A stretch of 64,000 nt of DNA, taken from positions 2,790,001 to 2,854,000 of the forward strand of contig NZ_CP004393.1 in assembly GCF_000819565.1 (NCBI RefSeq), read 5' to 3'. Made by a program: the position numbers and the translations under genes. The notes beneath the pieces are model-generated. The model did not search any database. It saw only the letters and a program-made list of their open reading frames with translations, and was not told where the DNA came from. Shown one piece after another: positions 50,580-64,000 of this stretch. The DNA is from Celeribacter indicus. GTDB lineage: Bacteria > Pseudomonadota > Alphaproteobacteria > Rhodobacterales > Rhodobacteraceae. Numbering within the stretch: position 1 is the stretch's first letter; each line of letters opens with the position of its first letter.

Positions 50580-51194
50580 TCAGTTCCGGCCGAGCGCCTC
50601 CTCGACGGAGACCACATCGGCATATTTCGCCTGCATGTCGAACAGGCTCTGCTCATGCGCGGCCTGCGACCGGTCGCCGACCGCCTCCCGGACCACGATC
50701 GGGCGAAAGCCGTTCTGCAACGCATCCACCGCCGTGGCGCGCACGCATCCCGAGGTCGTGCAGCCGGTGATGATCAGTGTGTCCACCTGCGCGGCCACCA
50801 GCCGGCTCGACAGGTCGGTGCCGAAGAAGGAGGAGGCGTATTTCTTCACGATGAGCTGGTCGCCCGGAACGCGCACCAGCCGCGGATCGAGTTCCGCCCC
50901 GTCGGTGTCGCCGGCCAGCGTCACGAGACCGGACTGTTTCAGCGGCCAGATTCCCGCGTCGGAAAGATCCGGGGCGTCGTAGCGGACCGTGGTGAAGAAA
51001 ACGGGCTCCCCGCGCCGCGCGACATCCCCGATCAGCCGGTTCGTCGCCTCGATCTGCGGCGCGAGCTCGGCGCCGAGGGGACGATCCGGATCGGTGAATC
51101 CCCGGATCAGGTCGATCACCACAAGGGCCGCCCTGCGCCCAAATCCCATCCGCAGGCCAAAGCCGCGTTGTGCGAAAAATTCTGCGTCGTTCAT
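50580..51194 (-). CDS. Isochorismatase-fold amidase (N-carbamoylsarcosine/maleamate amidohydrolase type)
   Basis: 204 residues. The catalytic triad is Asp28 in VVIDLIRGF, Lys117 or Lys118 in VKKYASSFF, and Cys150 in GCTTSGCVRATA. The segment TTSGCVRATAVDAL and the downstream VVREAVGDR are the form seen in N-carbamoylsarcosine amidase and maleamate amidohydrolase. It should hydrolyse a terminal amide or carbamoyl group and release ammonia. It starts 13 bases after the IclR gene, so the two are co-transcribed, and the cluster's HyuAB and racemase-fold enzymes are within 12 kb. The substrate is open. Confidence 0.87.
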   Translation of the reverse strand: MNDAEFFAQRGFGLRMGFGRRAALVVIDLIRGFTDPDRPLGAELAPQIEATNRLIGDVARRGEPVFFTTVRYDAPDLSDAGIWPLKQSGLVTLAGDTDGAELDPRLVRVPGDQLIVKKYASSFFGTDLSSRLVAAQVDTLIITGCTTSGCVRATAVDALQNGFRPIVVREAVGDRSQAAHEQSLFDMQAKYADVVSVEEALGRN

Positions 51195-51207
51195 GTCGAT
51201 CCTCCGA

Positions 51208-52041
51208 TCAGTTCGTGTCCCGATATCCCAGAGAATGAGAGATCGAATGTGCGTAAAGGCGGTTGAGCTTTCCGGTGCCCGCGAGGCGTTCGTCGGGATC
51301 GCCGGGGCGGTCGAAGATCGTGCTCAGCACGCCGACGGGACGGCCGCTCTCGTCGAGGAAGGCGCTCGCCGTGCCCTGGATGTGATCGAGTCCGCCGCCG
51401 AGATTTTCGGCATAGCCGCTCTCCCGCGCGAACCCGACCCTCTCCAGCAGCGAATCGTAGCTGACGTCGGTTTCGGCCAGATGGTCGCGGATCTCCGCCT
51501 CGCGCGCGGCGAGTTCGGCTTCGGGCAGGGCCGCGATATAGGCGACCTGGAAGGCCACGAAATCCGACCAGCCGCGGATCAGCCGCCAGACCGGCACGCG
51601 CGCGCCGGTCGGCCAGAGCCGCCGCATCGGATGGGCGATCGGCACGCCGATCCGCTCGTAGAGCACAAGTTCCTCCCCCGCCGCGTCGGCCAGCGTCACA
51701 TGGACGAGGCATCCCGTCTTGGCCGCGAGCCCGTCGGCATCGTCGAGCGCGGCCTGGCCCGCGCGCGACTTCAGCCAGACCTCGTAGCCCAGCTCCCAGT
51801 AGCGCAGAGACGGCCGGTAGCGCGATTTCGCGTCCTTCTCGACAAAGCCGAAGGCCATCAGGGTCTGGAGCAGGCGGTGCACGTTGCTTTTCGTCAGATC
51901 GAGCGAGGCCGCGAGGTCGCTCACCCCGACCGAGCCGTCGCATTCGGTCATGCGTTGCAGCAAAGTGAGACCTTTTGCAAAGGCCTTGTCGGTGGGCGCC
52001 TGTTTTTTGATCACGACGTCGGCTTTCGGGGTCATAGACAT
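51208..52041 (-). CDS. IclR-family transcriptional regulator
   Basis: 277 residues. An N-terminal winged helix (about 20-80, containing VSDLAASLDLTKSNVHRLLQTLMAFG) is followed by a GAF-like effector domain (about 100-260) with the small-molecule pocket typical of IclR. It is divergent from the TRAP transporter gene at 52129, and the AT-rich palindrome between them is its likely target. The same palindrome occurs before the second TRAP operon, so it may control both. The ATG at 52041 or 52035 may be used. Confidence 0.88.
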   Translation of the reverse strand: MSMTPKADVVIKKQAPTDKAFAKGLTLLQRMTECDGSVGVSDLAASLDLTKSNVHRLLQTLMAFGFVEKDAKSRYRPSLRYWELGYEVWLKSRAGQAALDDADGLAAKTGCLVHVTLADAAGEELVLYERIGVPIAHPMRRLWPTGARVPVWRLIRGWSDFVAFQVAYIAALPEAELAAREAEIRDHLAETDVSYDSLLERVGFARESGYAENLGGGLDHIQGTASAFLDESGRPVGVLSTIFDRPGDPDERLAGTGKLNRLYAHSISHSLGYRDTN

Positions 52042-52077
52042 CTCACTTTTCTTGACTACGGCGGTTTATCAAATTAG

Positions 52078-52092
52078 TTCCATAATACGACA
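52078..52092. promoter_or_regulatory. Candidate IclR operator, imperfect copy
   Basis: TTCCATAATACGACA. It shares the half-site TTCCATAATA with the sites at 52099-52113 and 57337-57351, and lies between the IclR gene and the first TRAP operon. Confidence 0.45.
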
Positions 52093-52098
52093 TGAGAA

Positions 52099-52113
52099 TT
52101 CTATAATATAGAA
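52099..52113. promoter_or_regulatory. Candidate IclR operator, perfect palindrome
   Basis: TTCTATAATATAGAA, a perfect 15-base palindrome 16 bases before the first TRAP start and in an otherwise GC-rich setting. An almost identical sequence precedes the second TRAP operon. Confidence 0.6.
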
Positions 52114-52128
52114 CAGGAAGGTGTCAAC

Positions 52129-53181
52129 ATGAACCGTCACTCTCTCCCGGCGCTTTTTGCGACCGCGATCCTGGCGACCGCCGCCGCCCCCACGCACGCA
52201 CAAGATCTGACCGAAACCCGGCTGAACGTCATCGGATCGGCCAGCTTCATGCCCCTCTACTCGGAACAGGAATATCCGTTCTGGACCGAAACGCTCCCCG
52301 CCGCCTCGGACGGCAAGATCGCCGCCGAGGTCCGCCCCTTCAACGAGGCCGGGCTGACCGGCACGGAACTCCTGCGCCTGCTCCAGCAGGGCGTGGCCGA
52401 TGCGGCGACCCCGATCCTCGGCTATCTCGCCGCGGATGACGCCGTGGCCGAGGCCGTCGACCTCGCCGGCATCGCGCCCGACGCGGCAACGGCGCGGGCC
52501 GTCTCCGCCGCCTGGGCGCCGGTGCTCGACGCGCATTTCCGCGAGACGAACGGCGCGCGGGTGCTGGGCATCCTCGCCTATCCCTCGCAGGTCCTGCTCT
52601 GCAAGAACAGCTTCGAAAGCCTCTCGGATCTCCAGGGCCGCAAGGTGCGGACCGGCAACCGCTCCCTCGCGGAACTCGTCGAATCGCTCGGCGCCAGCAG
52701 CGTGACCATGCCCATCGGCGATGTCGTGCCCTCGCTGGAACGCGGCGTGGTCGACTGCGCGATCACCGGCACCCTCACCGCCTACAATCAGGGCTGGTAC
52801 GAAGTCGTGAGCTATGCCTCCGACCTCGGGCTCGGCTGGAGCCAGCTTGCCACGATCGTCGGCCAGCAGTCCTGGGACCGGATGTCGGAAGCCAACCAGG
52901 CCTTCATCGAAACGCAATATGCCGAATTCGCCGAACAGGTCTGGGACGAGGTCGATGTGCAGACCGAGGTCGGCTTCGACTGCCTCACCGGACGGGCGGA
53001 ATGCCCGCTGGGTGAGCCTGCGAACATGACGCTGGTCGAGGCCACCGATGCGGACCGCGAGCTGCTGCGTGAGAAGCTGAGCGACACCGTGGTGCCGGCC
53101 TGGGTCGCGCGCTGTGGCGAGGGCTGCGCGGAGAACTGGAACGAGGCGATGGCCGATATCGTCGGCGTCCGGGCCGAGTGA
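52129..53181 (+). CDS. TRAP transporter solute-binding protein (DctP type), operon 1
   Basis: 350 residues with an N-terminal signal peptide (cleavage near THAQ, about 25). The mature protein has the TRAP SBP fold; the segment LSDLQGRKVRTGNRSLAELVESLGA includes the conserved Arg (about 180) that binds carboxylates in most members. It should capture an organic acid in the periplasm. Cys pairs near the C-terminus (FDCLTGRAECPLG and RCGEGCAENW) may form disulfides. The three TRAP genes are in the order P-Q-M. Its ligand is unknown. Confidence 0.9.
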   Translation: MNRHSLPALFATAILATAAAPTHAQDLTETRLNVIGSASFMPLYSEQEYPFWTETLPAASDGKIAAEVRPFNEAGLTGTELLRLLQQGVADAATPILGYLAADDAVAEAVDLAGIAPDAATARAVSAAWAPVLDAHFRETNGARVLGILAYPSQVLLCKNSFESLSDLQGRKVRTGNRSLAELVESLGASSVTMPIGDVVPSLERGVVDCAITGTLTAYNQGWYEVVSYASDLGLGWSQLATIVGQQSWDRMSEANQAFIETQYAEFAEQVWDEVDVQTEVGFDCLTGRAECPLGEPANMTLVEATDADRELLREKLSDTVVPAWVARCGEGCAENWNEAMADIVGVRAE

Positions 53182-53185
53182 TCCC

Positions 53186-53800
53186 GTGACCCGTTCCCCG
53201 ACCGAACAGCCGGACGCGATCCGAAGGATCGTGTCCGCCACCTCACAGGCCCTGGCGCTCGTCGGCGGGCTCTGCATCCTGGCCATCGTGGTCCTGACCG
53301 TGGCGGAAGTCGTCTCCCGCCGGCTGACGGGACGCTCGCTCGGCCCGGTCGACGAGCTGTCGAGCTATCTCTTCGCCGCCGGCATCGCGCTGTCGCTGGC
53401 CTGGGCGCTGGACAACCGCGCCCATATCCGGATCGACATCCTCTATGCGCGCCTGCCGCGCGGGATGCGCACCGCGTCCGACATCCTCGCGCTCCTGTCC
53501 CTGACGGCGTTCGCCGCCGTCCTGCTCGCGCGCGGCTGGCAGGTCTTCGCGATCTCCTGGGCCTCCGGGTCGCGCTCCGCCTCGACGCTGGGCCTGCCGC
53601 TGGTCCTGCCGCAGGGCGTCTGGCTCGCGGGGATCGCCATCTTCCTGGCCGCGCTGCTCTGTCAATGTGTCGCCGCCCTGCTGGCGCTGCTGCGCCGCCG
53701 GCCCGACTGGATCGCGCGCCACCTGTCCCCGCCCAACGTGGACGAACTCGTGGCCGAGGAAACCCGCGACCTGCCCCTGCACGAGGTCTCAGACCGATGA
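53186..53800 (+). CDS. TRAP transporter small permease (DctQ type), operon 1
   Basis: 204 residues from a GTG at 53186, five bases after the SBP stop. Four membrane spans (about 20-45, 60-80, 95-115 and 135-165) form the small DctQ domain. In the TRAP family it helps fix the large permease and the binding protein. Its stop overlaps the DctM start (ATGA). The Arg/Pro-rich C-terminus lies in the cytoplasm. Confidence 0.85.
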   Translation: MTRSPTEQPDAIRRIVSATSQALALVGGLCILAIVVLTVAEVVSRRLTGRSLGPVDELSSYLFAAGIALSLAWALDNRAHIRIDILYARLPRGMRTASDILALLSLTAFAAVLLARGWQVFAISWASGSRSASTLGLPLVLPQGVWLAGIAIFLAALLCQCVAALLALLRRRPDWIARHLSPPNVDELVAEETRDLPLHEVSDR

Positions 53801-55068
53801 TCGCCACAACCGTTCTCCTGCTGCTGGGCCTCATGGCGCTCAGCATTCCCGTCGCCGCCGTCCTCGGCATCCTCGCGATCGTGCTCGACAAGAGCTATGC
53901 GGTCTTCCCGCTGACCAACGCCATCGGGGAAATCGCCTGGTCCACCAGCACCGCGCCCTCGATGGTCGCGATCCCGCTCTTCATCCTGCTCGGCCAGCTC
54001 ATGCTCCATTCCGACATGGCGGGCGACATGTACCGCTCGATGCGCGCCTGGCTCGGCTGGCTTCCCGGCGGGCTGATGCACGCCAATATCGGCTCCTCCT
54101 CGCTGTTCGCGGCGACCTCCGGGTCGAGCGTCGCGACCGCGGCGACCATCACCTCCATCGCCCTGCCCGAGGCGCGCGCCAACGGCTACAACGAAAAGCT
54201 CTTCTGCGGCACGCTCGCGGCGGGCGGCACGCTCGGCATCCTGATCCCGCCCTCGATCAACCTGATCCTCTATGCGGTGATCACCGAGACCTCCGTCACC
54301 CGCCTCTATGTCTCCGCCGTGGTGCCGGGGCTGCTTCTGGCCGGGCTCTTCTCCGCCGTGCTCATCGCCCTCTGCCTGATGAAACCGGAGTTCGGCGGGC
54401 GGCGCGAGACCTTCGATCTGCGAAACGCGCTGCGCGGGTTGCCGATGCTGCTGCCGCCGCTGCTGGTGTTCTTCGCCATCCTCGGCTCGATCTACACCGG
54501 GCTTGCGACACCGAACGAGGCAGCCGCCATGGGCGTCGCCGCCGCGGCCGTCATCTGCCTCTGGCGCGGCAAGCTCAGCCTCGAGATCTGCCGCCGCGTG
54601 CTGCTCAGCACGATGGAGACCACGGCGATGATCATGCTCATCGTCATCGCCGCCGCCTTCCTGAACTTCGTCCTCTCCGGCATCGGCCTCGTCGCCGCCG
54701 TGACGCGGATGGTGGATGCGGTGAACCTGACGCCGTTCTGGACCATGGTGCTGATCATCCTCTTCTATGTGGCGCTCGGATGCGTGATGGAATCCCTGTC
54801 GCTGATGATCGCCACCACGCCGATCTTCGCGCCCATCGTCTTCGGCCTCGGCTACGATCCGATCTGGTTCGGCATCGTGCTGATGATCGTGATCGAGATG
54901 GCGCTGATCACCCCGCCCGTCGGCATGAACCTCTATGTCGTGCAAGGCGTGCGAAAGACCGGCTCGATCGGCGACATCATGGCGGGCAGCGCGCCCTTCG
55001 TGGTGGCGATGACCCTGATGATCGCGCTCCTGCTCGCCTTCCCGCAAATCGCACTCCTCTCCCGATAG
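53797..55068 (+). CDS. TRAP transporter large permease (DctM type), operon 1
   Basis: 423 residues with about twelve spans. Conserved TRAP stretches are seen, including ATSGSSVATAATITSIALPE, GTLGILIPPSINLILYAVI and ITPPVGMNLYVVQG. DctM carries the sodium-driven transport of organic acids. It completes the P-Q-M set and is followed after 36 bases by the racemase-fold enzyme. Confidence 0.92.
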   Translation: MIATTVLLLLGLMALSIPVAAVLGILAIVLDKSYAVFPLTNAIGEIAWSTSTAPSMVAIPLFILLGQLMLHSDMAGDMYRSMRAWLGWLPGGLMHANIGSSSLFAATSGSSVATAATITSIALPEARANGYNEKLFCGTLAAGGTLGILIPPSINLILYAVITETSVTRLYVSAVVPGLLLAGLFSAVLIALCLMKPEFGGRRETFDLRNALRGLPMLLPPLLVFFAILGSIYTGLATPNEAAAMGVAAAAVICLWRGKLSLEICRRVLLSTMETTAMIMLIVIAAAFLNFVLSGIGLVAAVTRMVDAVNLTPFWTMVLIILFYVALGCVMESLSLMIATTPIFAPIVFGLGYDPIWFGIVLMIVIEMALITPPVGMNLYVVQGVRKTGSIGDIMAGSAPFVVAMTLMIALLLAFPQIALLSR

Positions 55069-55104
55069 CTCTTCCAAACATCCTTCAGCAAGAAAGGCAT
55101 CAAC

Positions 55105-55845
55105 ATGACTGACCTCATGGGATGGCGGCGCAAGATTGCCGTTCTGATCCCCTCGACGAACACCATCGTCCAGCCGGAATTCGACGACATGCGCGTCGAG
55201 GGCGTCACCAACCACATCTCCCGCGTCGCGGTTCCCAATGCCGCCCTGAAGTCCGACGCGGACATGGAGCGCTTCATGGGCCTGATCGAGGAAGGCACCA
55301 GGGCCGCGCTGGAGTCCGCCCTGTCCTGCGAGCCCGACCATGTCGTCATCGGCATGTCGTCCGAGACCTTCTGGGGCGGGCTCGAGGGCAGCCGCAAGCT
55401 CGCCGCCCAGCTCGCGGAATGGACCGACCTTCCCGTCACCATGGGATCGGACGCCGCCGATGCGGCGCTGAAAAGCTACGGCGCGCGGCGGATCGGCATC
55501 CTGACCCCCTACCTCCCCATCGGGGATGCGAACGTCCACCGCTTCTTCACCGATCTCGGCTATGACGTGGCGCAGATCATCGGCCTGAAACGCTCGAGCC
55601 CCACCGACATCGCGGCCACGACCCTCGCGGAGATGGACGCGGCGCTCGACGAACTCGGCGCGCTGGACGTCGACGCGATCCTGCAATGCGGCACCAACCT
55701 GTGCATGGCCCGCCATGCGCCCCGCGCGGAAGACCGGCTGGGCAAGCCGGTGATCGCCATCAACACCGCCCTCTACTGGCACGCCCTGCGCAGCAGCGGC
55801 ATCAACGACACCCTGGAAGACTACGGGAGCCTGTTCCTGAAATGA
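55105..55845 (+). CDS. Asp/Glu-racemase-fold enzyme with a single catalytic cysteine
   Basis: 246 residues. The fold is that of maleate isomerase and arylmalonate decarboxylase: IAVLIPSTNTIVQPEFDDM at the start and GILTPYLPIGD in the middle. Only the second catalytic cysteine is present (Cys195 in ILQCGTNLC). The first catalytic position, usually Cys in racemases and isomerases, is Ser in VIGMSSETF. Single-Cys members such as arylmalonate decarboxylase use it alone for decarboxylation, so a lyase or decarboxylase is more likely than a racemase. The DUF4392 gene starts on its stop codon (ATGA). Substrate unknown. Confidence 0.8.
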   Translation: MTDLMGWRRKIAVLIPSTNTIVQPEFDDMRVEGVTNHISRVAVPNAALKSDADMERFMGLIEEGTRAALESALSCEPDHVVIGMSSETFWGGLEGSRKLAAQLAEWTDLPVTMGSDAADAALKSYGARRIGILTPYLPIGDANVHRFFTDLGYDVAQIIGLKRSSPTDIAATTLAEMDAALDELGALDVDAILQCGTNLCMARHAPRAEDRLGKPVIAINTALYWHALRSSGINDTLEDYGSLFLK

Positions 55846-56987
55846 CCGACACATTCACCCCCGATCTCGATCTCGCCCATGCCGTCGCGGATTCCGCCGA
55901 CCGGCTGATTTCCGTCCAGGTCTTCATGTCCGGCGGCAGCGCCGAGCTGACCGGCGCCAACATCACCCGCGAACTCTACGACGCCGCCCGCGCCAACCGG
56001 GCCGAGCCGCTGATCTACACCGCGGCGAAGGAACTGCTCGACCGGGTCAAGCCGCGCGACACGGTGGTGTTCTGCACCGGCTTCTTCGACCCGCCCTCGA
56101 TGATCGACGAGATGGACGGCCCGCTCGGCGCGGTGGCGCTGGCACGGATGCTCTGCGTGACCCTCGACATCACGCCGGTCTTCCTGACCGAGGTGGCCAA
56201 CATGGAGCGCATGGCCGGGCTCGCCGCCTCCCTCGGGCTCGAGGTGCTGGACTACGAGCTCGCCCGCACCACGCCGTTCAAGGCGGCGGTCATGCCGCTG
56301 CCCATCGACCACGACCGCGCGAAGGCCGAGGCCGAACGCCTCTGCGACCTCGCGCCCGCCGCGATGATCGCGATCGAGAAGCCCGCGCCCTGCCCGCGCG
56401 GCCGCTACCACACCGGCAAGGGGCTCGACGTCACCGACACCGTCGGCAAAGTCGACCACGTCTTCGCCGAAGCCCGCCGCCGCGGCATCCTGACCATCGG
56501 CATCGGCGATGGCGGCAACGAGGTCGGCATGGGCAGCATCCTTGAGGACATCCTGCGCGTCGTCCCCACCGGCGACGTGATCGGCACCCCCGTGGAGACC
56601 GACCTGCTCGTGGTCGCGGCCATCGCCAACTGGGGCGCCTATGCGATCGGCGCGACCATCGCCGCGGCGCTGCACATGCCCGAGGCGATCCACAGCCTCG
56701 AAGAGGAACGCCGCCTGACCGGGACCGCCGCCGCGCTCGGCTTCATCGACCCGGCGACGGGGCTCGCGAACGGCTGGACCGACGGCACCCCGCCGGTCTG
56801 CGCGGAGGCGGTCCTGGAACTGCTCCGGCAGATGGTCCTGCTGCGGCTCGGGCGGAAGAATCCGCAAAACCCGCTCCAGATCCCCAAGAAATGGGCGGAA
56901 CGGCACGATCCGAACACCACCGTCGCGATCTGGGCGGATCATCTCGCGCGCAAGGAAGCCGATTACTTCGGCCGCCTCTCCGCCTGA
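55842..56987 (+). CDS. D-glutamate cyclase-like protein (DUF4392/GLUCM C-terminal family)
   Basis: 381 residues. The conserved elements FCTGFFDPPSMIDEMDGPLGAVAL, IAIEKPAPCPRGRYHTGKG and TIGIGDGGNEVGMGSI match the C-terminal domain of D-glutamate cyclase, the mitochondrial enzyme that turns D-glutamate into 5-oxo-D-proline. In bacteria this domain is found alone, as here, and its reaction is mostly untested. The GDGGNE motif with two Asp and a Glu suggests metal binding. It overlaps the upstream enzyme by four bases, so they are co-expressed. A link to the oxoprolinase-type HyuAB at the window end would be logical. Confidence 0.82.
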   Translation: MTDTFTPDLDLAHAVADSADRLISVQVFMSGGSAELTGANITRELYDAARANRAEPLIYTAAKELLDRVKPRDTVVFCTGFFDPPSMIDEMDGPLGAVALARMLCVTLDITPVFLTEVANMERMAGLAASLGLEVLDYELARTTPFKAAVMPLPIDHDRAKAEAERLCDLAPAAMIAIEKPAPCPRGRYHTGKGLDVTDTVGKVDHVFAEARRRGILTIGIGDGGNEVGMGSILEDILRVVPTGDVIGTPVETDLLVVAAIANWGAYAIGATIAAALHMPEAIHSLEEERRLTGTAAALGFIDPATGLANGWTDGTPPVCAEAVLELLRQMVLLRLGRKNPQNPLQIPKKWAERHDPNTTVAIWADHLARKEADYFGRLSA

Positions 56988-57000
56988 TCCTTCCCGCACC

Positions 57001-57034
57001 GGGGCCCGCACCGCGCACCGGCGGTGCGGGCCCC
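57001..57034. terminator. Probable transcription terminator after the DUF4392 gene
   Basis: A perfect 14-bp GC stem, GGGGCCCGCACCGC paired with GCGGTGCGGGCCCC, around a 6-base loop, 14 bases after the stop. There is only a weak T run, so termination could depend on Rho or on stem strength. Confidence 0.65.
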
Positions 57035-57557
57035 GTCCTCCCCCGGCGGCGCGGCAGGAGTTTTCCCCTGACCCCCGCCCACCCGGACGCCCGCAGCCGC
57101 CGCCCTGGCCGGCCTGACGTCCGACCCGCCGGGGGCCTTTTCCTCCCGCTGTCCCATAGCCGACGCCATGCGGAACAGAGGCCCCGCACGGCTCCCGCCT
57201 TCGCCGTTTTTTTCTCGCCCTCACGCGGCCCGGCATTGCCTAGAGTTTAATCTTCTGCACGCCGCTCCTTCCGCCATCCCGGCACAGAACTTGACCGGAA
57301 CCGGCACGATCCATATCCTACTATTTAGGATAAATGTTCCATAATGTAGAACAACGGATACGCACAACGATGACGCAACCGACTCCTCTCCCGCCAGTCG
57401 CCCCCGATCCCCGACGCGCCGGCCGTCCCGGCCCCGTCCCCGCGACACGGTGAGCCGGGGCGCGATGCCGCCCCGGAACCCAGACCAAGACCCATAAAAA
57501 AGAACGCTCCTCGACCGAAGGCGCGTCGACACGCAACCTTTCCAACAGATGAGACCA
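57035..57557. other. Intergenic region before TRAP operon 2
   Basis: About 520 bases without a supported gene. The first half is very GC-rich. Near 57300-57360 the sequence turns AT-rich and holds the palindrome at 57337-57351. The promoter for the second TRAP operon should lie around it; the untranslated leader would then be long, at about 200 bases. Confidence 0.5.
57337..57351. promoter_or_regulatory. Candidate IclR operator before TRAP operon 2
   Basis: TTCCATAATGTAGAA, which differs at two positions from the perfect palindrome TTCTATAATATAGAA at 52099-52113. The flanking bases G and CA are also shared (TGTTCC...GAACA here and GAACA there), so both operons look to be controlled by one protein. 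Confidence 0.6.
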
Positions 57558-58541
57558 ATGATGACCAACCTCTTCCTTTCCGCGACGCTCACCTGCGCGA
57601 TGACGGTGACAGCCACTTTCGCGACCGCAGAAACCTGGGACGTCTCCCTTCCCTGGGGCCCGTCGGAATATCACGTCGGCAATGCCGAGCGCTTTGCCGA
57701 AGCGGTCGAGGAGGCGACCGGTGGCGAGCTGTCGCTGAAGATCCACGCCGGCGGCGCGCTCGGCGTGCGGCCCACTGAAACGGTGCGCGCGCTGGAAGAC
57801 GGCATCGTGCCGATGGGGGAAACCGCCGCGATGATGAACGTGGGCGACCTGCCCCTTCTGGGGCTCGACGGCATTCCCTTCCTGTTCGACGACGAGAGCG
57901 ATGTGGAACGCTACTACCAGCTCATCCGCCCGGTCTGGGAAGAGGCGCTCGAGACGCGGAACCAGAAGCTGCTCTATTCCGTGCCCTGGCCGACGCAGCT
58001 CATCTTCACCAACCGGAAGATCGAGAGCCTCGACGATTTCGAGGGCCTCGCCGTCCGCACCATGGACACCAATACCTCCAACCTCGCGGAAAGCCTCGGG
58101 ATGCTGCCGCTGATCATGGGCTCCGCCGACGTGATCCCGGCGCTCGCGACGGGCAAGCTCGACGCGGTGATGACCTCCGGGACGACCGCCGTCGCCCAGC
58201 AGCTCTGGGAATTCCTCGATTACGGCTATGTCACCAACCACATGGTCTCCTTCAACCTCATGTCGGTGAACATGGATTACTGGAACGAGCTCGCGCCCGA
58301 GACGCAGCAGACGGTCCTCGACCTCGCCGCGACGATGGAGCCGGAGTTCTGGGAGGTCGCCCGCCAGGAACACGACATGCGGATGAAACAACTCGAGGAG
58401 AACGGCCTCGAAGTCTCCGTGCCCTCGCCCGACATGCTGGCCGCGATGCGTGACGCCACGGCCTCGCTCGAGCAGAATCTGGTCGCAAGTACCGGTGCCG
58501 ACGCGGAACGCGTGCTGAACGCCTATCACGCCGAGGACTAA
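57558..58541 (+). CDS. TRAP transporter solute-binding protein (DctP type), operon 2
   Basis: 327 residues; the start may also be 57549 or 57561, and none has a strong ribosome-binding site. An N-terminal signal ends near FATAE (about 23). The mature fold has GPSEYHVGNAERFAEAVEEATGGEL, GLAVRTMDTNTSNLAESLG with the ligand Arg (about 170), and the usual helical C-terminus. It should bind a periplasmic organic acid for the permeases that follow. It is not closely similar to the SBP of operon 1, so the two TRAP systems probably carry different ligands. Confidence 0.88.
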   Translation: MMTNLFLSATLTCAMTVTATFATAETWDVSLPWGPSEYHVGNAERFAEAVEEATGGELSLKIHAGGALGVRPTETVRALEDGIVPMGETAAMMNVGDLPLLGLDGIPFLFDDESDVERYYQLIRPVWEEALETRNQKLLYSVPWPTQLIFTNRKIESLDDFEGLAVRTMDTNTSNLAESLGMLPLIMGSADVIPALATGKLDAVMTSGTTAVAQQLWEFLDYGYVTNHMVSFNLMSVNMDYWNELAPETQQTVLDLAATMEPEFWEVARQEHDMRMKQLEENGLEVSVPSPDMLAAMRDATASLEQNLVASTGADAERVLNAYHAED

Positions 58542-58640
58542 GATCCGGTCCGGTCGCATGCTCCGGCTGCGACCGGATCCGACCGGCGCGGCCAGACGGC
58601 CGGACCGCCGCCCGTTCCCCGATTCAGGAAAGATCAGACC

Positions 58641-59162
58641 ATGCAGACACTCCATCGGGCCTGCCGTCTCGCGACCCGCGCCGGAGCCGTTTTCGCCGCC
58701 GCCGCCCTCGCCGTCCTGGCGCTCATGCTGGTGCTCGAGGTGGTGCTGAACTCGGCCTTCCGCATCTCCCAGCCCTGGGCGACGGAATATTCCGTCTACC
58801 TTCTCGGCGCGAGCCTCTTTGCCGGAAGCGGCTGGGTCTTTACCGAGGCCGGGCATATCCGCGTCACCCTGCTCAGCGACCGGCTCTCCGCCCCGCTCGC
58901 CCGCGGCATGGCGGTGGTCACGGAGGCCATCGGCCTCGCGGTGGCCAGCTTCGCCGCCTGGCACATGACGCTCTATGCGCTCGCGAGCCTCGAGCGCGGT
59001 TCGACGAGCCTCTATCCCAGCGCCACGCCGCTCTGGATCCCGCAGATGATGCTGGCGGTCTCCCTCTGGCTGATCTGCACCGGGATCGTCGCCTGCATGA
59101 TGGAAACGCTCGGCTTCGTGCGGCCGCGTGCCGCCGCCCCCGACCTCGCAAGGGAAATCTGA
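58641..59162 (+). CDS. TRAP transporter small permease (DctQ type), operon 2
   Basis: 173 residues with four predicted spans (about 14-36, 50-68, 88-110 and 130-152). A short loop contains the conserved GAFAGSGW-like element GASLFAGSGWVFTEAGHIRV. The gene lies 99 bases after the SBP gene and two bases before DctM, so it belongs to the same transcript. It supports the transport step with the large permease. Confidence 0.85.
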   Translation: MQTLHRACRLATRAGAVFAAAALAVLALMLVLEVVLNSAFRISQPWATEYSVYLLGASLFAGSGWVFTEAGHIRVTLLSDRLSAPLARGMAVVTEAIGLAVASFAAWHMTLYALASLERGSTSLYPSATPLWIPQMMLAVSLWLICTGIVACMMETLGFVRPRAAAPDLAREI

Positions 59163-59164
59163 TC

Positions 59165-60448
59165 ATGGCCGTCCCGGCAACATTCATCCTGACCGCCCTG
59201 GCCGTCCTGCTGCTGAGCGGCACCTGGATCGGCCTGTCCCTCATGGGCACGGGCATCCTGTCGCTGGAACTCTTTCGCAACATGAGGGTCGGCACCTTCC
59301 TCGCCTCCGACATCTGGGGCACGGCGACCTCGCAGGAACTCGTCACCCTGCCCCTCTTCGTGCTGATGGGCGAACTCCTCTACGTCACCAACCTGTCGCG
59401 CAACCTGTTCGACGGGCTGGCGCCCTTCGCGCGCCGGCTGCCGGGCGGGCTGATCCAGGTGAACGTGCTGGCCTCGGCGCTGTTCGCCGCGATCAGCGGC
59501 TCCTCGGCCGCGACCACCGCGACCGTCGGGCGCATCACCGTCGAGGAACTCGACAAACGCGGCTTCGACCCGATGCTGAACCGCGGCTCGCTGGCGGGCG
59601 CGGGTTCGATCGGGCTGCTCATTCCGCCCTCCATCCCGATGATCGTCTACGGCGTCATCGCACAGGTCTCCATCCTCGACCTCTTCATCGCCGGGCTGCT
59701 TCCGGGCCTCCTGCTCTGCGCGATGTTCATGGCCTGGATCGGCCTGCGCTCGCGCGCCCCCGACGACCCGGATGCCAGACCGCTGACCTTCCGCCAGGCG
59801 GCGCAGTCCATCGGCCGGCTGCTGCCGACCCTGCTGCTCATCCTCTGCGTGATGGGCTCGATGCTGACGGGCCTCGCCTCCGTGACCGAGGCGGCCGCCG
59901 TCGGCTCGGCGGGCGCGCTTGTCCTGCTGCTGCTCGATCCCGGTTTCCGGCTGCGCAAGCTCACCGGCGCGCTGATGAGCGCGGTGCGGACATGCAGCAT
60001 GATCAGCCTCATCCTCGCCGGCGCGCTCTTTCTGACGAAGGCCATGGCGCGGCTGTCCATTCCCTCCGACATCGCCCAGGCGATCGAGGCGCTGCACCTG
60101 TCGCCCTTCGCGCTGATCGCGCTTCTGGTGGTGTTCTACCTCGTGCTGGGCTGCGTCATCGACGGGCTGTCCACCATCGTCATGACCCTGCCGGTCACGC
60201 TGCCCCTCGCGGTCTCGGCGGGCTTCGATCCGGTCTGGTACGGGATCTTCCTCATCGTGACGATCGAGATGGCGCAGATCACCCCGCCGGTCGGGATCAA
60301 CCTGTTCGTGATGAAACACCTCACCGGCGACCCCATCGGCCGGCTCGCCCGCGCGGCCGCGCCCTTCTGCCTGGTGATGATCCTGCACGTCTTCGTCCTG
60401 ACGCTCTTCCCGCAGATCGCGACATGGCTCCCGCAGGCGCTCAAGTGA
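59165..60448 (+). CDS. TRAP transporter large permease (DctM type), operon 2
   Basis: 427 residues and about twelve spans. The signature ISGSSAATTATVGRITVEEL (about 112-131), GSIGLLIPPSIPMIVYGVI and ITPPVGINLFVMK show it to be DctM. It is the sodium-driven carrier of operon 2. The last bases overlap or touch the following racemase-fold gene, which implies co-expression and a shared substrate path. Confidence 0.92.
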   Translation: MAVPATFILTALAVLLLSGTWIGLSLMGTGILSLELFRNMRVGTFLASDIWGTATSQELVTLPLFVLMGELLYVTNLSRNLFDGLAPFARRLPGGLIQVNVLASALFAAISGSSAATTATVGRITVEELDKRGFDPMLNRGSLAGAGSIGLLIPPSIPMIVYGVIAQVSILDLFIAGLLPGLLLCAMFMAWIGLRSRAPDDPDARPLTFRQAAQSIGRLLPTLLLILCVMGSMLTGLASVTEAAAVGSAGALVLLLLDPGFRLRKLTGALMSAVRTCSMISLILAGALFLTKAMARLSIPSDIAQAIEALHLSPFALIALLVVFYLVLGCVIDGLSTIVMTLPVTLPLAVSAGFDPVWYGIFLIVTIEMAQITPPVGINLFVMKHLTGDPIGRLARAAAPFCLVMILHVFVLTLFPQIATWLPQALK

Positions 60449-60459
60449 CGGAGGCGAAG

Positions 60460-61218
60460 ATGACCCGCCCCGCCTCGAGCTATTCGATGCGCGCCCGGAT
60501 CGGCCTGATCGTTCCGCCGACCAACACGGTGAACGAGGCCGAATGGTCCCGCCTCCTGCCCGAGGGCGCCACGGCCCACAGCCACCGCATGGCACTGCAC
60601 ACCGACACGCAGAGCACCGAGGGCATCGCCGCTCTGAAGACCGATCTCGAGGCGGCGGTCGCGATGCTGGCGCCGATGCGGCCGGATGTGGTGGCCTATG
60701 CCTGCACCGCCGGGTCGCTGGTCACGCCCTCCGACGCGCTCGGGGCGGAGATCTCCGCACGCAGCGGCGTGAGCGTGATCACGACGGCGGACAGCCTCGT
60801 GCAGGCGCTGCGCCATCTCGGTGCCGGACGGATCGGCCTCGCCACCCCCTATTCGGAGGCGATGAACGCGCATGAGGTGGCCTTCCTCGCGGCGCACGGG
60901 ATCGAAACCCTGGCCGTCGCCGGGCTGGGGCTCGGCGCGCGGGGGGCGTGGGAATATCCCAAGATCGCGCAGACGCCGCTTGCGACCGTGGAGCGCCTTG
61001 CCCGGCAAGTGGGGGCCGCGGATGTCGCGGCGCTGGTGATCAGCTGCACCGATTTTCCGACCCTGCCGCTCATCGCGCCGCTCGAGCGGGAGCTGGGCAT
61101 TCCGGTCCTCACCTCGAACACCGCGACGCTGTGGCGCTGTCTCGGCCATGTCCCGGACCCGGAGGAGACCCGGCGCGACCCGCGCCTGCGCGCCGCCGGA
61201 CGCCTGTTCGGGGCCTGA
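60460..61218 (+). CDS. Asp/Glu-racemase-fold enzyme with both catalytic cysteines (maleate isomerase type)
   Basis: 252 residues from ATG 60460, with GGAGG at 60450-60454; a GTG at 60445 overlapping the previous stop is the alternative. Two cysteines in the positions expected for this fold are present: Cys82 in AYACTAGSL and Cys196 in VISCTDFP. This matches maleate isomerase and Asp/Glu or hydantoin racemases, which use the cysteines as the base pair. It is clearly different from the single-Cys enzyme at 55105-55845. It ends TRAP operon 2. Racemisation or cis-trans isomerisation of a dicarboxylic acid is the likely reaction. Confidence 0.82.
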   Translation: MTRPASSYSMRARIGLIVPPTNTVNEAEWSRLLPEGATAHSHRMALHTDTQSTEGIAALKTDLEAAVAMLAPMRPDVVAYACTAGSLVTPSDALGAEISARSGVSVITTADSLVQALRHLGAGRIGLATPYSEAMNAHEVAFLAAHGIETLAVAGLGLGARGAWEYPKIAQTPLATVERLARQVGAADVAALVISCTDFPTLPLIAPLERELGIPVLTSNTATLWRCLGHVPDPEETRRDPRLRAAGRLFGA

Positions 61219-61257
61219 GGCACCGACACGGCGCCCGTCCACCCGTCGAAAATCGGA

Positions 61258-61291
61258 CACCCCGGCCACGCCATTCCGCGTGGCCGGGGTG
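61258..61291. terminator. Bidirectional terminator between convergent genes
   Basis: A 14-bp stem, CACCCCGGCCACGC paired with GCGTGGCCGGGGTG, around a 6-base loop, lies 39 bases after the racemase-fold gene and 30 bases before the end of hyuB on the other strand. It can serve both operons. Confidence 0.7.
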
Positions 61292-61320
61292 CGCCCTTCA
61301 CGACGGCACCTCGCGCCGGG

Positions 61321-62952
61321 TTACACCCAGTCGCCCGCACCGCGGACGGTGACGTAGCCTTCGGCGAGATCCCGTTCGATCATCCGCCGGTCGCGTTCCC
61401 CGGCCGGGCCGTAGCCGCCCGCCCCCGGCGTGCGCAGGGTCAGGACATCGCCCGAGGAGAGCGACAGCGACCGCTCGCCGAGGATCGGCTCCCCGTCGTT
61501 CACGATGATCTCCCCCACGGCCCCGGCCTCGCCGCCGAGAATGCCCTCGGGAACGGACCGGGTACGGTCGGCCTGAAGGTAGATCTCGATCGGGGAGGTC
61601 TCGAGCACCCGCATCGCGACCTCGAGACCGAGCCCGCCGCGGAACCGGCCGCGCCCGCCGGAATCCGCCCGCAGCCTCTTGTAATCCACCCGCATCGGCG
61701 CCAGCCGCTCCATGATCTCGACCGGAACGCCGGAGATGTTGGACGGCCAGCTCAGCACGCTCGGCCCGTCATGCCGGCAGGTCGCGCCATAGCCGCCGTT
61801 GAAGAAGAAAAGGTTGGCATAGGGCCCCTTCTCGTTCGTCCCGGTCTGGTGCATCGCCCAGGTGGCCACGCCGCAGGGGGCCATCACCCGCTCCGGCACC
61901 GCCTCCGCAAGCGCGGTGATCGAGGCGACCGGCAGGTGGTGGCCGATCATGTTGCGCGAGAAGCCCGCGCAGGGATACCTGTGGTTGAGGATGCTGCCCT
62001 CGGGCACCGTCATCGTGATCGGCCGCAGCACGCCCTCGTTGTTGGGCAGGTCCGGCGCGATGACCGATTTCAGGCCATAGACGGTATAGGCGAAGGTATA
62101 GGCATAGACCACGTTGAGGGAAGTTCCGTCCATCTGGGGCGGCACGTCCTCGAAATCGACGAGGCAGTCCCCGTCCTTCAGGGTGATGACCATGTTGACC
62201 TCGAAGGGCTCGGTCAGCCCGTCGGGGGTCACGGTATAGCGGTATGTTCCCTCCGGCATGGCGGAGATGGCGGTGCGCATCGCGCTTTCGGAGCGGTCGA
62301 GGATCTCGCGGCCGAGATCGGTCAGATCCTCCAGCCCGTATTCCGCCATCAGCTCGGTCACCCGCTGCGCGGCGACGTCGAGGCTGGTCATCTGCGCCCA
62401 GAGGTCGCCCATGACCTGATCCGGCGCCCGGACGTTGGTCCGCAACAGCCGCACCAGCGTCTCGTCCACCTGGCCGGCGCTGATCAGCTTGCAGCGCGGG
62501 ATCTGGAACCCCTCCTCGAAGATGTCGCGCATGACCAGGCTGCCGGAGCGGCCGCCCACGTCCATCGCATGCGCCGTCGAGGCCGCGAAGCCCACGAGCC
62601 GCTCGCCCACGAAGATCGGCCGGCACAGGTTGATGTCCGGGAGGTGGCCTGTGCCCTGCCAGGGGTCGTTGCAGATCATCACATCGCCGGGATGGATGTT
62701 CTCGAGGCCGAAGCCCTCGATGAAATGGCGCACCGTGCGCGGCAGGGTGCCGATGAAGGAAGGGATCGACTGTGTCGCCTGGGCGAGCAACTGCCCCTCG
62801 ACATCGGTCACGACCACCGCGAAATCATGCGATTCCCGCACGATGGTGGAAAAGGCGGTGCGCACGAGGATGGCCGAGGCTTCGTCCACCGCCGAGATCA
62901 GGCGGTTCCAGAGGATTTGCAGGCTGACAGCGTCGAATTGAACTGAACTCAT
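61321..62952 (-). CDS. hyuB: Hydantoinase/oxoprolinase subunit B, operon 2
   Basis: 543 residues. The conserved elements are the start VSLQILWNRLISAVDEAS, GDVMICNDPWQGTGHLPDINLC and GFAASTAHAMDVGGRSG, the last with the His and Asp positions expected at the metal site, plus a Gly-rich end LRTPGAGGYGPAG. With HyuA it forms the ATP-dependent ring-opening enzyme. It follows HyuA by 24 bases. It differs from the operon 1 protein along most of its length, so the two sets probably have different substrates. Confidence 0.88.
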   Translation of the reverse strand: MSSVQFDAVSLQILWNRLISAVDEASAILVRTAFSTIVRESHDFAVVVTDVEGQLLAQATQSIPSFIGTLPRTVRHFIEGFGLENIHPGDVMICNDPWQGTGHLPDINLCRPIFVGERLVGFAASTAHAMDVGGRSGSLVMRDIFEEGFQIPRCKLISAGQVDETLVRLLRTNVRAPDQVMGDLWAQMTSLDVAAQRVTELMAEYGLEDLTDLGREILDRSESAMRTAISAMPEGTYRYTVTPDGLTEPFEVNMVITLKDGDCLVDFEDVPPQMDGTSLNVVYAYTFAYTVYGLKSVIAPDLPNNEGVLRPITMTVPEGSILNHRYPCAGFSRNMIGHHLPVASITALAEAVPERVMAPCGVATWAMHQTGTNEKGPYANLFFFNGGYGATCRHDGPSVLSWPSNISGVPVEIMERLAPMRVDYKRLRADSGGRGRFRGGLGLEVAMRVLETSPIEIYLQADRTRSVPEGILGGEAGAVGEIIVNDGEPILGERSLSLSSGDVLTLRTPGAGGYGPAGERDRRMIERDLAEGYVTVRGAGDWV

Positions 62953-62976
62953 CGCGTATGACTCCGTACTGTCGTT

Positions 62977-64000
62977 TCAGGATTGGTCGAGGGTGACGAC
63001 GAGGTTGCCGCTTCGATGCACGCGGGCGCGCGCGCCGGGCGGCACGACCAGCGTGGAGACCGGCTCCTCGATGATCGCGGGCCCCTCCACCTCGGATCCG
63101 GGCCCCATGAGAGCGCGGGTATAGACGGCGGCCGCGACGCTCTCGCTGCCGAACCGGACCTGCCGCAGGCCCTTCCGCGCCTCCGGCAGCGTGCCGCCGG
63201 ACGGCGGGGCAAGCAGCCCCGCCGCGTCCGAGGCCGGGGATTGCACCGAGACGCGGATGTTCATGATCTCGATCTCCGAGTCCGGCAGCCGCTGGAAGAC
63301 GCGGCGATATTCCGCCTCGAACCGCTCCCGGATCACCGGCAGGGATGCGGCATCGAAGGGGCCCGAGGGCAGATCGACGACGAGTTCGAAGCCCTGCCCG
63401 ACATAGCGGATATCGGCGGCGCGCCGGATCGCCGGCTGCGGCGCGGCGCCCGTCGCGCGGCTGACGGCGGTCGCATCCTCCTCGAGGGCGCGATACTCCG
63501 CCTCGAAGGCGTCCCAGTCGAGCTCGTTCAGCGGTGTCGCCACCGAGAGGGAGCGGTCGACGCGCACCGGCGCCACGAGCAGGCCACTGGCCGAGGCGAC
63601 ACCGGCCGAGGGCGGGCAGATCACCTCCCGGATGCCCAGCTTGCCGGCGACCGCACAGCCGTGCAGCGGCCCGCCGCCGCCGGTGGCGAGCAGCGCGTAG
63701 CGGCGCGGATCCTTGCCGTTTTCCGCGATATGCATCCGCGCGGCGCTCACCATGTTCTCGTTCACCACGTCATAGATGCCCCAGGCCAGTTCCTCGACCC
63801 CGAGGCCGGTCGCCTCGCACAGCGGCGCGAAGGCGTCGCGCGCGATTTCCGGGCTGATCGCGATGGTCCCGTTGGCGAAGGTCTCGGGATCGAGATAGCC
63901 CAGCAGCAGCGTGGCATCGGTCACGGTCGGATCGGTCCCGCCACGGCCGTAGCAGGCCGGGCCCGGCGTCGATCCGGCGCTCCGCGGACCGACCTTCAGC
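62977..64000 (-). CDS. hyuA: Hydantoinase/oxoprolinase subunit A, operon 2 (5' end outside window)
   Basis: The visible part is about 340 residues, open to base 64000; the N-terminal ATP-binding motif is outside. LKVGPRSAGSTPGPACYGRGG, LATGGGGPLHGCAVAGKLGI and the C-terminal IRYVGQGFELVVDLP region mark HyuA/OplA. The ATG at 63924 is internal to the domain, so it is not the start. It works with the HyuB that follows. In combination with the DUF4392 and racemase-fold genes it could open 5-oxoproline or a hydantoin. Confidence 0.88.
   Translation of the reverse strand, partial: LKVGPRSAGSTPGPACYGRGGTDPTVTDATLLLGYLDPETFANGTIAISPEIARDAFAPLCEATGLGVEELAWGIYDVVNENMVSAARMHIAENGKDPRRYALLATGGGGPLHGCAVAGKLGIREVICPPSAGVASASGLLVAPVRVDRSLSVATPLNELDWDAFEAEYRALEEDATAVSRATGAAPQPAIRRAADIRYVGQGFELVVDLPSGPFDAASLPVIRERFEAEYRRVFQRLPDSEIEIMNIRVSVQSPASDAAGLLAPPSGGTLPEARKGLRQVRFGSESVAAAVYTRALMGPGSEVEGPAIIEEPVSTLVVPPGARARVHRSGNLVVTLDQS

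Follow-up and report, generated by a model that had tools for sequence, protein, structure and literature searches.

A candidate IclR regulon with two TRAP importers, two racemase-fold proteins and a DUF4392 protein in Celeribacter indicus

What kind of substrate would call for two tripartite ATP-independent periplasmic (TRAP) importers, an isochorismatase-fold amidase, two proteins of the Asp/Glu-racemase fold (AMD1 and AMD2 here), a stand-alone DUF4392 protein and a neighboring HyuAB pair? The question is raised by one end of a 64,000-nucleotide stretch of the genome of the marine bacterium Celeribacter indicus, here called the window (bases 2790001-2854000 of contig 1; the genome comprises 4.97 Mb in 6 contigs). 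An earlier note, made from the sequence alone, had proposed an undescribed ring-opening catabolic island here, and domain matches confirm every gene family it named, each in its place. Eleven of the genes (those for the amidase, an IclR-family regulator, DctPQM1, AMD1, the DUF4392 protein, DctPQM2 and AMD2) look like one IclR regulon, because a rare palindrome precedes both TRAP operons and, within 2 mismatches, is found nowhere else in the genome. The explanation we favor, with slightly less than even confidence, is that this regulon serves to break down small dicarboxylic acids that contain nitrogen, namely amides and five-ring lactams. What leads to it is a pyroglutamate-type importer, whose relatives often adjoin genes for 5-oxoprolinase-type enzymes, combined with a maleamate-type set of amidase and isomerase. 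The parts come from known families; what is new to us is their combination, together with the cysteine-poor AMD1, and no description of this gene set was found in the open-access literature searched under DUF4392, D-glutamate cyclase, arylmalonate decarboxylase (AMDase), pyroglutamate TRAP or the enzyme set.

A rare palindrome before both TRAP operons

The amidase gene (50580-51194, minus strand; PF00857) and the IclR-family regulator gene (51208-52041, minus strand; PF09339) are followed by a plus-strand operon from which the regulator gene diverges. This operon encodes the solute-binding protein DctP1 (52129-53181; PF03480), the small permease DctQ1 (53186-53800; PF04290, matched in a longer frame), the large permease DctM1 (53797-55068; PF06808 and TIGR00786), AMD1 (55105-55845), of the maleate-isomerase/AMDase fold, and the DUF4392, or GLUCM-like_C, protein (55842-56987; PF14336 at 6.9e-58 in a longer frame). 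A second plus-strand operon encodes the solute-binding protein DctP2 (57549-58541; PF03480), the permeases DctQ2 (58641-59162, small; PF04290) and DctM2 (59165-60448, large; PF06808), and AMD2 (60463-61218; PF17645 in a longer frame). Before each operon stands a 17-bp palindrome of the form GTTCYATAWTRTAGAAC. Putative operator site 1, ATTCTATAATATAGAAC (52098-52114), stops 14 nt short of the DctP1 start; putative operator site 2, GTTCCATAATGTAGAAC (57336-57352), lies 196 nt before the DctP2 start. With up to 2 mismatches allowed, the pattern occurs nowhere else in the 4.97-Mb genome; the reversed pattern, run as a control, gives 1 match per strand. Within the window, with up to 3 mismatches allowed, the chance expectation is 0.08. 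Most simply, the palindromes would be operators through which IclR controls both TRAP operons. IclR would then sit on both, and substrate or product would free both operons at once. The catabolic island of the earlier note accordingly looks real, with both TRAP systems as members by virtue of the common palindrome; co-regulation of HyuAB with the rest is not supported, as those genes, whose minus-strand position the earlier note does not mention, are convergent and lack an operator.

The order amidase-IclR-TRAP1-AMD1-DUF4392 is kept on plasmid pPABY1 of Salipiger abyssi at 81-94% identity (DUF4392 protein 94%, AMD1 91%). There, too, the AMD1 and DUF4392 genes share a 4-base overlap, and site 1 is kept at equal distance from the DctP1 start; the block is followed by TetR and fatty-acid-type genes. 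Since PF14336 occurs only once in the C. indicus genome and the block is conserved in S. abyssi, the finding does not look like chance. The amidase-to-DUF4392 block is accessory, because the DUF4392 gene is found at 1e-30 in 1 of 20 genus genomes (C. indicus itself, S. abyssi evidently lying outside the 20) and at 1e-40 in 2 of 394 family genomes, C. indicus included. Contig sizes give an indirect indication that AMD1 and DUF4392 are linked in relatives as well: all six listed AMD1 relatives of at least 78% identity share the exact longest-contig size of a DUF4392 relative (250394, 6174, 79417, 39085, 19157 and 18286), equality being judged by eye and short sizes being open to coincidence (both lists contain 1820 and 2391).

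The DctP2 receptor and the amidase-racemase module

By sequence and by fold, the three best PDB matches of DctP2 are the pyroglutamate receptors 2pfy, 2pfz and 6wgm, the last, a marine protein, being taken as such from its PDB title only. Among solved receptors it is closest to DctP6 and DctP7 of Bordetella pertussis (2pfz, 2pfy), from which, as from 6wgm, it differs in being just 28-29% identical; a pyroglutamate-type receptor would be its closest description. HyuA or HyuB lies within about 1.5 kb in 8 of 29 loci of DctP2 relatives. The four nearest relatives in 149 genomes are 40-41% identical; one (L146) is accompanied by HyuAB and two (L144, L145) by LamB/YcsF, CT_C_D and D-amino-acid transaminase genes. 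Locus L146 (4795-18730) has the arrangement HyuAB-TRAP-TRAP-HyuAB, head to tail, and L144 and L145, which also carry a DapA-like gene, look like a 5-oxo-D-proline or D-amino-acid unit. As for DctP1, an amidase-like gene occurs in the flank of only 2 of 29 loci of its relatives (L151, L154).

The amidase's top PDB hit is 26st, an N-carbamoylsarcosine amidohydrolase (2.5e-58), followed by the maleamate amidases 4l07 and 3ot4, with 1nba fifth. Residues D28, K117/K118 and C150 provide the Asp-Lys-Cys triad of this amidase group. The best match of AMD2 is 2xec, a putative maleate isomerase, and AMD2 has the two catalytic cysteines of the maleate isomerase and Asp/Glu-racemase fold: C81 and C195 are invariant in 17 aligned rows, an alignment that left out L010 and L203, the latter lacking the second cysteine.

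These proteins recur together. A Thioclava plasmid groups the genes for AMD1, AMD2 and the amidase with those for a TAXI-TRAP system and for a flavin monooxygenase, which among solved structures comes closest to PnpA and HspB; Allorhizobium has the same set. In all, 23 neighborhoods were examined, comprising 6 regions centered on AMD1 (covering 7 of the 14 AMD1 matches outside the genome itself, with L199 and L200 chosen partly for a nearby DctP match), 9 centered on AMD2 (the best 9 of 13 such matches) and 8 plasmid regions chosen from 298, 599 and 69 matching records. Both AMDs are present in 8 of them, and every one of the 8 also has the amidase and the flavin monooxygenase, while HyuA, HyuB and DUF4392 were found in none; L223, L225 and L228 (AMD2 only) and L108, L111 and L112 (AMD1 only) were counted as misses. 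The 8 are not 8 independent events, since one genus contributes three (L224, L226, L227) and a second genus two (L221, L222), and the AMD2 match in L203, distant at 67 bits, is the one without the second cysteine. In a control of 49 loci centered on distant DUF4392 genes, the amidase, AMD1 and the monooxygenase score 0 of 49 at 1e-10 and an AMD2-like gene 9 of 49, with one locus (L025) showing an isochorismatase-like gene at a looser threshold; this control is weak, because its loci come mostly from other lineages. Amidase relatives in the other fetched loci likewise fall mostly within AMD1 or AMD2 neighborhoods, without HyuAB. The flavin monooxygenase-amidase-AMD1-AMD2 cluster itself (L106, L107, L203, L221, L222, L224, L226 and L227, all alphaproteobacterial) had no match to a described pathway; some copies add TAXI-TRAP, PEP-mutase/ICL-like, PuuE-like or MBL genes. 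Neighbor-gene labels of this kind (FADMO, PEPM_ICL, PUUE, MBL, TAXI, HMGL, CoAT and so on) are phmmer matches to single family-assigned proteins.

One other placement of AMD2 was considered, that of a racemase tied to HyuAB. AMD2-like proteins of 38-41% identity occur with HyuB in the flank (L179-L182), and a paralog in the C. indicus genome itself (L183/L206) lies near TRAP, HyuB and HyuA genes. This placement was set aside, as the tree groups the window's AMD2 with those of Thioclava and Allorhizobium (99/97), whose clusters hold AMD1 and the amidase and no HyuAB, and gives L179-L182 a clade of their own. In that second locus of the genome (L206, 9766-17840, about 3.00 Mb on contig 1), the racemase-fold gene stands in line with TRAP genes, HyuB and HyuA.

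Among the closest described parallels is the cluster with which Pseudomonas putida S16 degrades nicotine (hspB, iso, nfo, hpo, ami; PMC3812094); there iso encodes a maleate isomerase and ami a maleamate amidase, both in one pathway with hspB. This cluster has in common with the island an amidase of the same superfamily group and a two-cysteine maleate-isomerase-like enzyme, and the island's conserved relatives also carry an HspB-like flavin monooxygenase. The island, unlike the P. putida cluster, has no such monooxygenase, and no dioxygenase or deformylase was recognized among its genes; it adds AMD1, the DUF4392 protein, two TRAP importers and the IclR regulator.

AMD1 and the DUF4392 protein

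The earlier note called AMD1 a single-cysteine enzyme. AMD1 has the cysteines C75, C195 and C200, and the description holds for the window's protein at the two canonical catalytic positions; it does not hold for the subfamily, in which C195 is not conserved. A survey of 136 aligned sequences (the best 120 of 5236 matches, the window's protein and 15 from the loci) finds no cysteine at the first canonical catalytic position (0 of 136) and, at position 195, V in 120, C in 14, L in 1 and A in 1. AMD1 thus lacks the pair of catalytic cysteines that marks maleate isomerases and Asp/Glu racemases. Nor does it qualify as a true AMDase. C195 is aligned by phmmer to C188, the single catalytic cysteine of AMDase, a place that profile comparison with AMD2 gives instead to G196. 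The counterpart of AMDase G74, in the motif LMGTSLSF, is M84 in IGMSSETF (position 84 is I in 113, M in 21, V in 1 and L in 1), and neither LMGTSLSF nor ILLSCGGL was found in AMD1. The AMDase criteria in Table 4 of PMC4996985 accept similar residues at motif positions, and I or M is not similar to G; by the criteria of that source, the AMDase assignment was rejected on the G74 position and the motifs. The same source describes clusters linking arylmalonate decarboxylase with TRAP genes. From that enzyme the AMD1 subfamily differs in that 134 of 136 members have I or M in place of G74 and 120 of 136 have V195. What AMD1 does share with AMDase is the dioxyanion-hole tyrosine, Y126 there and Y136 here (Tyr in 133 of 136). 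The closest AMD1 relative in the 149 family genomes (L199, 56%) sits with DctPQM1-type genes, an amidase gene and HMG-CoA-lyase-like and CoA-transferase-like genes. A large subfamily carrying the names maleate isomerase or AMDase (relatives P0121-P0240) lacks the canonical catalytic pair.

The DUF4392 protein has an intact acidic metal site in its GLUCM-like_C domain, as a D-glutamate cyclase should: E90, D92, E179, D223, E227 and D303 are the counterparts of six acidic metal ligands of TON_0340 and are invariant in 24 aligned relatives. It lacks the N-terminal DUF1445 (PF07286) domain of the mammalian enzyme, and PF07286 (D-Glu_cyclase) has 0 matches anywhere in the genome at E 0.001; in 14 control genomes PF07286 matches one (Bacillus subtilis) and PF14336 none. 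TON_0340, an archaeal stand-alone DUF4392 protein, is reported to be a Mn-dependent phosphatase (PMC5132392), and D-glutamate cyclase activity is reported for the two-domain DUF1445-DUF4392 protein of the mouse (PMC5339696). Taken with the absence of PF07286 from the genome, these reports make D-glutamate cyclase a weak label that would not simply transfer to the C-terminal domain alone. The window's protein shares the six ligands with TON_0340 and with the mammalian C-terminal domain (PF14336); it is about 110 residues longer than TON_0340 and, compared with the mammalian enzyme, comes from a genome with no PF07286 match.

In 80 distant DUF4392 loci, archaea included, a racemase-fold gene lies within 5 kb in 10, and in 8 of the 10 it shares the strand of the DUF4392 gene at a distance of no more than 67 bp, related proteobacteria accounting for six of the 8; TRAP genes lie within 5 kb in 4. 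The profiles behind these counts were iterated on the very loci counted. The earlier note held that the island would be mere proximity should its genes not be co-regulated and DUF4392 and HyuAB never occur together elsewhere; HyuA or HyuB does occur with DUF4392, on the same strand and at most 5 kb apart, in 5 of the 80. In one locus (L010, Gracilibacteraceae, 39%) DUF4392 is accompanied by both TRAP genes and a racemase-fold gene. Close DUF4392 relatives are mostly metagenomic, those in L008 and L009 (40-41%) lie with NMT1-type receptors and an amidohydrolase, and a search of viral contigs found none. DUF4392 genes also occur in twos or threes within a few kb, often in tandem (L023, L028, L029, L038, L049 and L062; further such loci are L069, L071, L072, L077, L093 and L100), and beside a UbiD decarboxylase gene in L016 and L027/L090, where L090 adds UbiX, a racemase-fold gene and an aminotransferase.

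A wider proposal, more speculative than the regulon and offered as a possibility, is that AMD1 represents a large Asp/Glu-racemase subfamily that works without the canonical catalytic cysteines, one for which no function was found. In the clade considered here, which would have gained C195, it would pair with the DUF4392 metalloenzyme in a two-enzyme step on an amide or lactam acid; the flavin monooxygenase-amidase-AMD1-AMD2 cluster would be a pathway of alphaproteobacteria, so far undescribed, that handles N-heteroaromatic or lactam acids, and the island an oxygenase-less, importer-fed version of it. The favored explanation, if right, also draws attention to a big set of proteins of this fold that databases label maleate isomerase or arylmalonate decarboxylase and that lack the residues such labels imply.

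Competing readings and the HyuAB neighbor

On the favored explanation, TRAP2 would import an acid like 5-oxoproline, and TRAP1 a related open-chain acid or half-amide. The isochorismatase-fold amidase would strip the amide nitrogen. AMD2 would isomerize or racemize the acid through its cysteine pair, as maleate isomerase follows maleamate amidase in the nicotine/nicotinate route. AMD1 and the metal-site-bearing DUF4392 protein would carry out a coupled step, perhaps ring closing or opening or an isomerization, by a chemistry other than that of the canonical pair, and HyuAB, a separately transcribed ATP-dependent enzyme of lactamase or 5-oxoprolinase type, may act on the same lactam. If so, DUF4392, which also occurs in a mammalian mitochondrial enzyme, gains a bacterial regulon with importers whose ligands can be tested, through which its substrate can be searched for directly, and the recurrent amidase-AMD1-AMD2 module is set apart from its HyuAB neighbor.

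Several observations weigh against this explanation. Nothing at the S. abyssi locus matches AMD2, the second TRAP system near by is only 23-30% identical to TRAP2, and among the loci examined TRAP2-AMD2 is linked to TRAP1-AMD1-DUF4392 only in C. indicus; none of the best 120 of 859 AMD2 relatives has any of the six contig sizes common to AMD1 and DUF4392 relatives. DUF4392 is absent from all 8 neighborhoods with both AMDs, and the flavin monooxygenase that accompanies AMD1 and AMD2 there was not found in the island. The closest genome-derived DUF4392 relative among the matches listed (L007, 61%) is on a 3.8-kb contig with neither TRAP nor AMD genes; its neighbors encode an NMT1-type binding protein and a cupin, a context that speaks against a fixed DUF4392 partnership. 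On the import side, DctP2 is distant from the solved pyroglutamate receptors (the 28-29% given above), HyuA and HyuB were not found in the flank of 21 of the 29 loci of its relatives (L125 and L142 carry a D-amino-acid-dehydrogenase-like gene instead, and L120 an aminotransferase), and the PDB matches of DctP1 are weak, the best at 7e-14, and name no ligand.

An unlikely alternative, already raised by the earlier note, is a D-glutamate/5-oxo-D-proline pathway in which DUF4392 cyclizes D-glutamate, HyuAB opens 5-oxoproline with ATP, the racemase folds adjust stereochemistry and TRAP2 imports pyroglutamate. The receptors nearest to DctP2, the 8 of 29 loci with HyuA or HyuB, the 5 of 80 loci where these lie near DUF4392 and the cyclase activity of the mouse protein (PMC5339696) all fit it. 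The missing PF07286 match weakens the cyclase step, as does the phosphatase activity reported for TON_0340 (PMC5132392); HyuAB has no operator, and the amidase, AMD1 and TRAP1 are left unexplained. Doubtful, too, is a lower N-heterocycle pathway of the maleamate type alone, in which the amidase would yield maleate-like acids, AMD2 and AMD1 would isomerize them, the TRAP systems would take up products of rings opened by others, and DUF4392 would be accessory. The HspB/PnpA-like monooxygenase and amidase in 8 of 8 neighborhoods suit this well, as do the AMD2 match to a putative maleate isomerase and those of the amidase to the maleamate amidases 4l07 and 3ot4; the best amidase match is nevertheless an N-carbamoylsarcosine amidohydrolase, DctP2 is of pyroglutamate type, and the island has no such oxygenase. 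Chance proximity of two or three unrelated uptake-enzyme units (TRAP1-AMD1-DUF4392, TRAP2-AMD2 and HyuAB) would account for S. abyssi having the first unit only, for the TRAP2-AMD2 linkage in C. indicus alone and for the rarity of the DUF4392 gene (1e-30) and HyuB (1e-150), each in 1 of 20 genus genomes, in the case of HyuB again C. indicus itself; the rare palindrome that the two TRAP operons have in common, and the amidase, AMD1 and AMD2 together in 8 other places, make it improbable. Last, the N-methylhydantoin or creatinine-type route of the earlier note (HyuAB plus N-carbamoylsarcosine amidase) keeps as its sole supports the best amidase match and the adjacent HyuAB genes, and is very improbable with HyuAB outside the regulon and best matched, far below cut-off, by caprolactamase models, amidase relatives mostly in HyuAB-free AMD1/AMD2 neighborhoods and TRAP2 of pyroglutamate type.

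The HyuAB genes themselves, for a HyuB-like subunit (61321-62952; PF02538 at 2.1e-144) and a HyuA-like subunit (whole gene 62977-65355, its 3' part 62977-64000 inside the window; PF01968, PF05378 and PF19278 over the whole gene), are read from the minus strand toward AMD2, with a hairpin of 12-bp stem (61259-61290) in between, by inference a terminator, which no T run follows on the plus strand. No operator palindrome was found at HyuAB in the genome-wide search at up to 2 mismatches. Membership of HyuAB in the operon was rejected on strand, convergence and the lack of an operator. The view of HyuAB as a mere chance neighbor was not accepted either, because DctP2 relatives often adjoin HyuA or HyuB (the 8 of 29 loci). 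The pair is absent from the S. abyssi locus, as it is from the 8 neighborhoods with both AMDs. The nearest relative of the window's HyuA among fetched loci is that of L146 (44.7%), directly upstream of a DctP2-type TRAP system, and HyuAB may be functionally linked to TRAP2. The HyuA and HyuB domains are complete, like those of 5-oxoprolinase/hydantoinase HyuAB and caprolactamase CapAB, and the best NCBIfam models are caprolactamase subunits; HyuAB differs from CapAB in scoring 504 and 183 bits, far below the cut-offs of 1000, and forms a transcription unit of its own. Divergent from HyuA lies a gene (65417-66304) that resembles a LysR regulator in a by-eye reading only. An NlpA/MetQ-type ABC system lies beyond HyuA and this divergent gene, and to the right of HyuAB are genes for an ethanolamine ammonia-lyase large subunit and a choline/ethanolamine kinase-like protein (L002, 9960-12379).

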